A DNA stretch of 64,000 nt from Rummeliibacillus pycnus (GTDB lineage Bacteria; Bacillota; Bacilli; Bacillales_A; Planococcaceae), in NCBI RefSeq assembly GCF_002884495.1, contig NZ_KZ614145.1:1936423-2000422 (forward strand). The letters run 5' to 3'. Numbering within the stretch: position 1 is the stretch's first letter; the number at the start of each line of letters is the position of its first letter. The translations under genes were made by a program, and so were the position numbers. The notes below the pieces were generated by a model that made no database searches, was not told the origin of the DNA, and was given only the letters and a program-made list of their open reading frames with translations. This document shows, one piece after another, positions 11,925 through 12,999 of the stretch.

Positions 11925-12305
11925 TTATCCCAACACAATTGTACCGTCAATGTTGGTAAATAATTGATCCTGTGCTTCATGACGATCCATTGCTGTAATA
12001 ACCGTAGCATTTTTAGCACTCACTATTAGAGCTGCATTGCTTGTTAAAACGAGTGAATCGTTGACACCTTTAGATTTTGCTTCAAATACTTTGTTTGTAA
12101 TGCGTTCCCATTGATGATCATCAATATGGATATTGCGCTCATGGAGTCTATTAGATGCATGCTTACTCACTTTTAACTGTTTTGTGGTCTGTTCTGCTAA
12201 TAACTCACTAAATGATTGCTGCTCTAGTTGTTTTACTTGTACTGTTTTTTGTTTAATGCCTGATTGTATAGGATATTGATGCTGAATATATTTAATTGTC
12301 GGCAT
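11925..12305 (-). CDS. Flagellar operon protein, TIGR02530 type, function unclear
   Basis: This 126-residue soluble protein has a central SKHASNRLHERNIHIDD segment and an IVSAKNATVITAMDR segment. I recognise it as the small family often placed between flgD and the hook gene in Firmicutes (TIGR02530, flagellar operon protein). No enzymatic motif or membrane segment is visible. The ATG at 12305 has GGAGGG seven bases upstream. Its fixed position suggests a role in hook assembly or its control, but this rests only on context. Confidence 0.85.
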   Translation of the reverse strand: MPTIKYIQHQYPIQSGIKQKTVQVKQLEQQSFSELLAEQTTKQLKVSKHASNRLHERNIHIDDHQWERITNKVFEAKSKGVNDSLVLTSNAALIVSAKNATVITAMDRHEAQDQLFTNIDGTIVLG

Positions 12306-12319
12306 ATGTTAACCCTCCA

Positions 12320-12553
12320 TTATTCAGAGATAGAGGATAATTGATCTGCTTGAATTTCTTTATCATTTGATAAAACTAAAACAATGTTACCATCAGCATT
12401 CTTTTTAACAGATTTCACAGTAGCACTTGTTTCTTGGTTTTCATCTGTGTATGTAATGTTTTTCCCTATTAACATACTTGCTTCCACTAGCGAATTTGAT
12501 GCACTTTTTTCTGATGTTCCATCTAATACTTCAGAAATATTCGCAGGTGTTAA
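12320..12553 (-). pseudogene. flgD: C-terminal part of flgD, out of frame with its N-terminal part
   Basis: Reading directly on from the flgD stop in the -1 frame gives [19 protein letters not shown], then a second unit LVEASMLIGKNITYTDENQE with NIVLVLSNDKEIQADQLSS and ISE before a TAA at 12322-12320. The second unit repeats the pattern of the first (NFIGKSVNW ... [10 protein letters not shown]), so this is real former or recoded coding sequence. No ribosome-binding site or start codon supports independent translation. One additional A in the A5 run at 12554-12558 would restore a single 226-codon frame. Sequencing error, mutation or slippage cannot be told apart here. Confidence 0.8.
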
Positions 12554-12999
12554 TTTTTCCCATCTGCAAGTGTAATCGTAACACTATCACCGTTATAAGA
12601 AATTTTACTTACAACACCACTTCCAGAATCTACAATTGGATTTCCTTTTTCATCCGTCTTAGATGAAACTTCATGCCAGTTTACACTTTTTCCAATAAAA
12701 TTGTTATATTGAATTAACTGTGATTGCTTCGAAATCTCTGATAATGAATCAATCGATTTTGATACATTTTGCATTTGTTCTAGAGATGAAAATTGGGCCA
12801 TTTGAGAAATGAATTCTTTATCATCCATAGGACTGGTAGGATCTTGATTTTGCAATTGCGTAACAAGTAATTGTAAAAAGGCATCTTTATTTAATGAACT
12901 ATTGCCTGTTTGTTTTGTACTCTTTTTATTTGATAAATAATAACCAGAAGTTACAGCTTTATCTGTTGTTGCATTATTTGTTACAGTAGTATCTGCCAT
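12550..12999 (-). CDS. flgD: FlgD hook-cap/scaffold protein, shortened by a frameshift
   Basis: The 149-residue reading frame has the FlgD core: [41 protein letters not shown], then the start of a beta-rich domain ending LADGKN and stop. FlgD caps the growing hook and is needed for hook polymerisation. The frame ends at 12550 after a run of five A (minus strand, 12558-12554). In the -1 frame the protein continues for about 80 residues with homologous sequence to 12320, so the gene looks like a 226-residue protein lacking one base. The truncated form is close in size to B. subtilis FlgD (about 140 residues) and could still work. Confidence 0.88.

Follow-up and report, generated by a model that had tools for sequence, protein, structure and literature searches.

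A frame break in the hook-cap gene flgD of Rummeliibacillus pycnus: recent single-base loss or sequencing error?

The flgD gene is a member of a long minus-strand flagellar operon in the window analyzed here (the whole 64,000-nt stretch, positions 1936423-2000422 of a genome of 3.85 Mb assembled as one contig), where its reading frame stops early and what looks like its remainder lies in the -1 frame. Has the cell lost its hook cap, is the consensus wrong by one base, or does the shorter protein, alone or together with a product of frame switching, do the work? The features concerned are the following.

12550..12999, minus strand: flgD as read, encoding the N-terminal FlgD domain and part of the first Tudor-like barrel (open reading frame list, PF03963, alignment of relatives)
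12554..12558, minus strand: run of five A adjoining the break (sequence)
12320..12553, minus strand: remainder of flgD in the -1 frame, encoding the end of barrel 1 and the whole of barrel 2 (tblastn, NF007197, PF13861, absence of decay)
11925..12305, minus strand: next operon gene, an intact flagellar protein gene of the TIGR02530 family (open reading frame list; NCBIfam E 8e-36)

The 0 frame in the open reading frame list comprises 149 codons and a stop, and the break site reads GAT GGG AAA AAT TAA on the minus strand, the stop occupying 12552-12550. From 12553 to 12323 the -1 frame is open for 77 codons, up to a stop at 12322-12320; base shuffles of this stretch stay open with a probability of 0.0008. 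An earlier note had proposed that one extra base would restore a flgD of 226 codons, and both the codon count and the coordinates prove right against the sequence and the open reading frame list. The same note placed the lost base in the A run. Five A do stand at 12554-12558, but the relatives' codons vary at this site (Lys-Lys, Lys-Glu and Lys-Thr), so that it is uncertain whether the lost base belonged to the run. Runs of this length are ordinary in the window, which holds 312 five-base runs of A or T. Judged by eye, any start of its own for the 3' part is weak.

Comparison with relatives identified the -1 frame as the rest of the gene. The source genome, a fourth species of the genus, is most closely related to R. 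suwonensis, R. stabekisii and Rummeliibacillus sp. POC4, and the genus comparison covered four Rummeliibacillus genomes, one per species. When R. suwonensis FlgD (221 aa) was used as a tblastn query, residues 1-142 matched before the break with 75% identity and residues 142-220 after it with 65% identity, the two pieces abutting. FlgD is unbroken at this position in the three other Rummeliibacillus genomes and in all close relatives aligned, which, across genus and family, carry one continuous FlgD of about 210-245 residues. A search for the FlgD family in 61 genomes found it in 53, one copy each, and none of these 53 has a stop inside the matched domain. The observation is thus confirmed: the flgD frame is cut, and the -1 frame carries the remainder of a normal FlgD.

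The surroundings of the gene are sound. It lies between a gene for a 469-aa protein upstream and the TIGR02530 gene downstream, and no promoters or terminators beyond chance expectation were found in the gap. All other genes in the window align near full length with their R. suwonensis counterparts, and the flagellin, FliD and rod, hook and FlgK-type genes elsewhere in the genome have open frames; the earlier claim that all other flagellar genes are intact is accordingly borne out within the window and for the genes of these types that were checked outside it. The flgD gene is present in a single copy, and no second copy able to compensate was found in the genome.

The FlgD of congeners has two Tudor-like barrels in tandem behind its N-terminal FlgD region. 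R. stabekisii FlgD is matched in two stretches by the Tudor model and likewise by the short-FlgD model, which bears out the earlier remark that the sequence past the stop repeats the preceding domain, and the two-barrel form probably arose by internal duplication. Two tandem barrels occur in the FlgD of the genus and of many related Bacilli, as against one in short FlgDs. The 149-aa product matches PF03963 at residues 17-85 (E 1.3e-26) and so contains the N-terminal FlgD domain, with no match to the FlgD Tudor domain (PF13861) that a complete C-terminal barrel should give. The -1-frame segment does match PF13861 (E 2e-4, below the curated cut-off) and the FlgD model NF007197 (E 7e-10, below the cut-off for the whole protein). 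A structure predicted for R. stabekisii FlgD (mean pLDDT 72, pTM 0.34), in which confidence is low for the N-terminus and the overall arrangement and mostly 85-95 in the barrels, places a helix at residues 56-95, the strands of barrel 1 between 101 and 155, and those of barrel 2 between 180 and 226. By alignment, the 149-aa product ends at the equivalent of residue 145, so that barrel 1 is without its last strands and barrel 2 is absent altogether.

These boundaries bear on whether the 149-residue protein could by itself serve as the hook cap, its remainder being dispensable, as the earlier note had considered in view of the length of B. subtilis FlgD. The product has a complete N-terminal domain, one-barrel FlgDs of about 143-157 residues exist in other Bacilli, and in Salmonella the N-terminal region of FlgD is essential and alone complements weakly, the C-terminal region making hook assembly efficient (PMC8595650). 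However, the short FlgDs of other Bacilli and of Thermoanaerobacterium run beyond the break position and have a complete Tudor domain, so that the agreement in length is a coincidence and not a shared architecture. On the short-FlgD model NF007197 the product covers positions 6-106 of 138, short of the end that a short-type FlgD reaches, whereas congeners cover 2-136; its score of 129.9 bits is just above the model cut-off of 129. A protein length matching that of B. subtilis FlgD can therefore mislead. The supposedly dispensable part moreover shows no decay, and we regard a functional truncation, an idea weakened by the unfinished first barrel, as improbable.

The state of the 3' part also dates the break. 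Its nonsynonymous distance (pN) is 0.186 between the window and R. suwonensis, 0.240 between the window and R. stabekisii, and 0.266 between R. stabekisii and R. suwonensis; measured to Viridibacillus arvi, the window copy is at 0.306, the lowest of the four congeners, the others lying at 0.332-0.389. The 3' part is thus no more diverged than in congeners with an intact gene, which leaves no time for it to have decayed. Because this orphaned sequence has not drifted, either the event is very recent, the consensus is in error, or the 3' part is still used.

A 226-residue protein might be made if the five-A run were a site of programmed -1 frameshifting, of transcript slippage or of phase variation. 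The open, conserved -1 frame and the fall of the switch at an A run speak for such a mechanism. A -1 switch is possible only within the 37 bases from the last -1-frame stop to the 0-frame stop (12550-12586, minus strand), and this stretch contains no slippery heptamer of the form X XXY YYZ. Nor is there notable RNA structure downstream (fold z = -0.73, with 51 of 200 shuffles doing no worse; pseudoknots being outside the model). No conserved frameshift site was found in the relatives, which read one continuous frame with varied codons at the break and have no need of such a site, and five A fall far short of the length of known hypermutable tracts (eight bases in swrA; PMC13228054). The slippage recoding raised in the earlier note consequently finds no backing here, and recoding or phase variation at this site seems to us very improbable. 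Least credible is a variant in which the run would undergo non-canonical -1 shifting or slippage of the transcript and give 149- and 226-residue FlgD side by side, the mixture tuning hook assembly.

Recent mutation and sequencing error, the other two options that had been listed, both stay live. If the consensus has dropped one base from a short A run and flgD is unbroken in the cell, the undamaged, conserved 3' part, the unbroken gene in all relatives and the soundness of every other flagellar gene checked would follow naturally. To see how often such breaks occur, we compared 1.2 Mb of the source genome with 1.2 Mb of the largely collinear R. suwonensis genome; 668 R. suwonensis genes were well matched, and this survey misses breaks close to gene ends and genes without relatives. 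Most raw candidates were dropped on inspection as antisense or over-extended open reading frames or as remnants (such as a chemoreceptor fragment and repeats). At 2283200-2283700 on the plus strand of the source genome lies what is left of a methyl-accepting chemoreceptor signalling domain, with nothing intact upstream of it.

Among the 668 genes, only flgD and one short-chain dehydrogenase gene are clear frameshifts of otherwise sound genes. The dehydrogenase gene (about 1474680, minus strand, outside the window) appears to be split by the loss of one base in a short stretch rich in A. In the reverse comparison (655 genes), R. suwonensis showed a split hypB and one decayed ABC-type gene; the hypB-like gene (hydrogenase nickel incorporation; about 2923770) is split by a frameshift in that assembly. 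Frameshifts are therefore similarly rare in both genomes, and the assembly is not generally poor, which speaks against an error, as does the shortness of a five-base run for homopolymer miscounting. The second single-base loss in an A-rich context in the same assembly points the other way: it could hint at a residual deletion bias and so counts against a real loss. Weighing these points, we give appreciable but not leading weight to a sequencing or assembly error, and slightly favor a real recent loss over an isolated error of this kind; the division between them is a judgement and not a computation.

We accordingly lean, with modest confidence, towards a flgD that was until very recently a normal hook-cap gene of 226 codons and has undergone a genuine recent single-base loss. 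On this reading the ancestral gene encoded two Tudor-like barrels behind an N-terminal helix domain. Comparison with relatives shows that one base is missing at or beside the A run, which places a stop after codon 149; the mutation was presumably fixed in the sequenced culture. The predicted product would keep its N-terminal part, including the long helix from which the cap stalk is built, and lose the end of barrel 1 and the whole of barrel 2. In B. subtilis, loss of flgD leaves the hook unpolymerized and the hook protein FlgE is secreted (PMC4526659); from this and the Salmonella work, hook assembly would be expected to be absent or weak and unpolymerized FlgE to be released. As the truncated protein retains the N-terminal region, weak motility is possible.

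If the loss is real, the strain probably swims poorly or not at all although its flagellar genes are otherwise sound, and this bears on any use of the genome as a motility reference for the species; if it is an error, a single gene call of the assembly has to be corrected. Motility has been reported for R. stabekisii PP9 (PMC4882941), and our literature search found no paper that names the source strain or records its motility. The break has an ordinary explanation in either case, and neither mutation nor error raises a new question.

Among known systems, the window gene shares with the FlgD hook cap (PF03963 and PF13861; NF007197) the N-terminal domain, the operon setting and the single copy, and differs from it in ending inside the first Tudor-like barrel, where intact congeners have two in tandem. 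The outcome predicted for a real loss is the same as that of the B. subtilis flgD deletion mutant described above, except that the N-terminal region remains in the window strain and residual function is possible. The closest precedent for frameshift loss of a motility gene in cultured Bacillus is swrA of B. subtilis laboratory strains, in which a single-base change in homopolymer length likewise inactivates a motility gene of a cultured member of the Bacillales (PMC13228054); swrA, however, encodes a regulator and its eight-base tract is known to revert, whereas flgD is a structural gene, its run has five bases, and nothing points to reversal.
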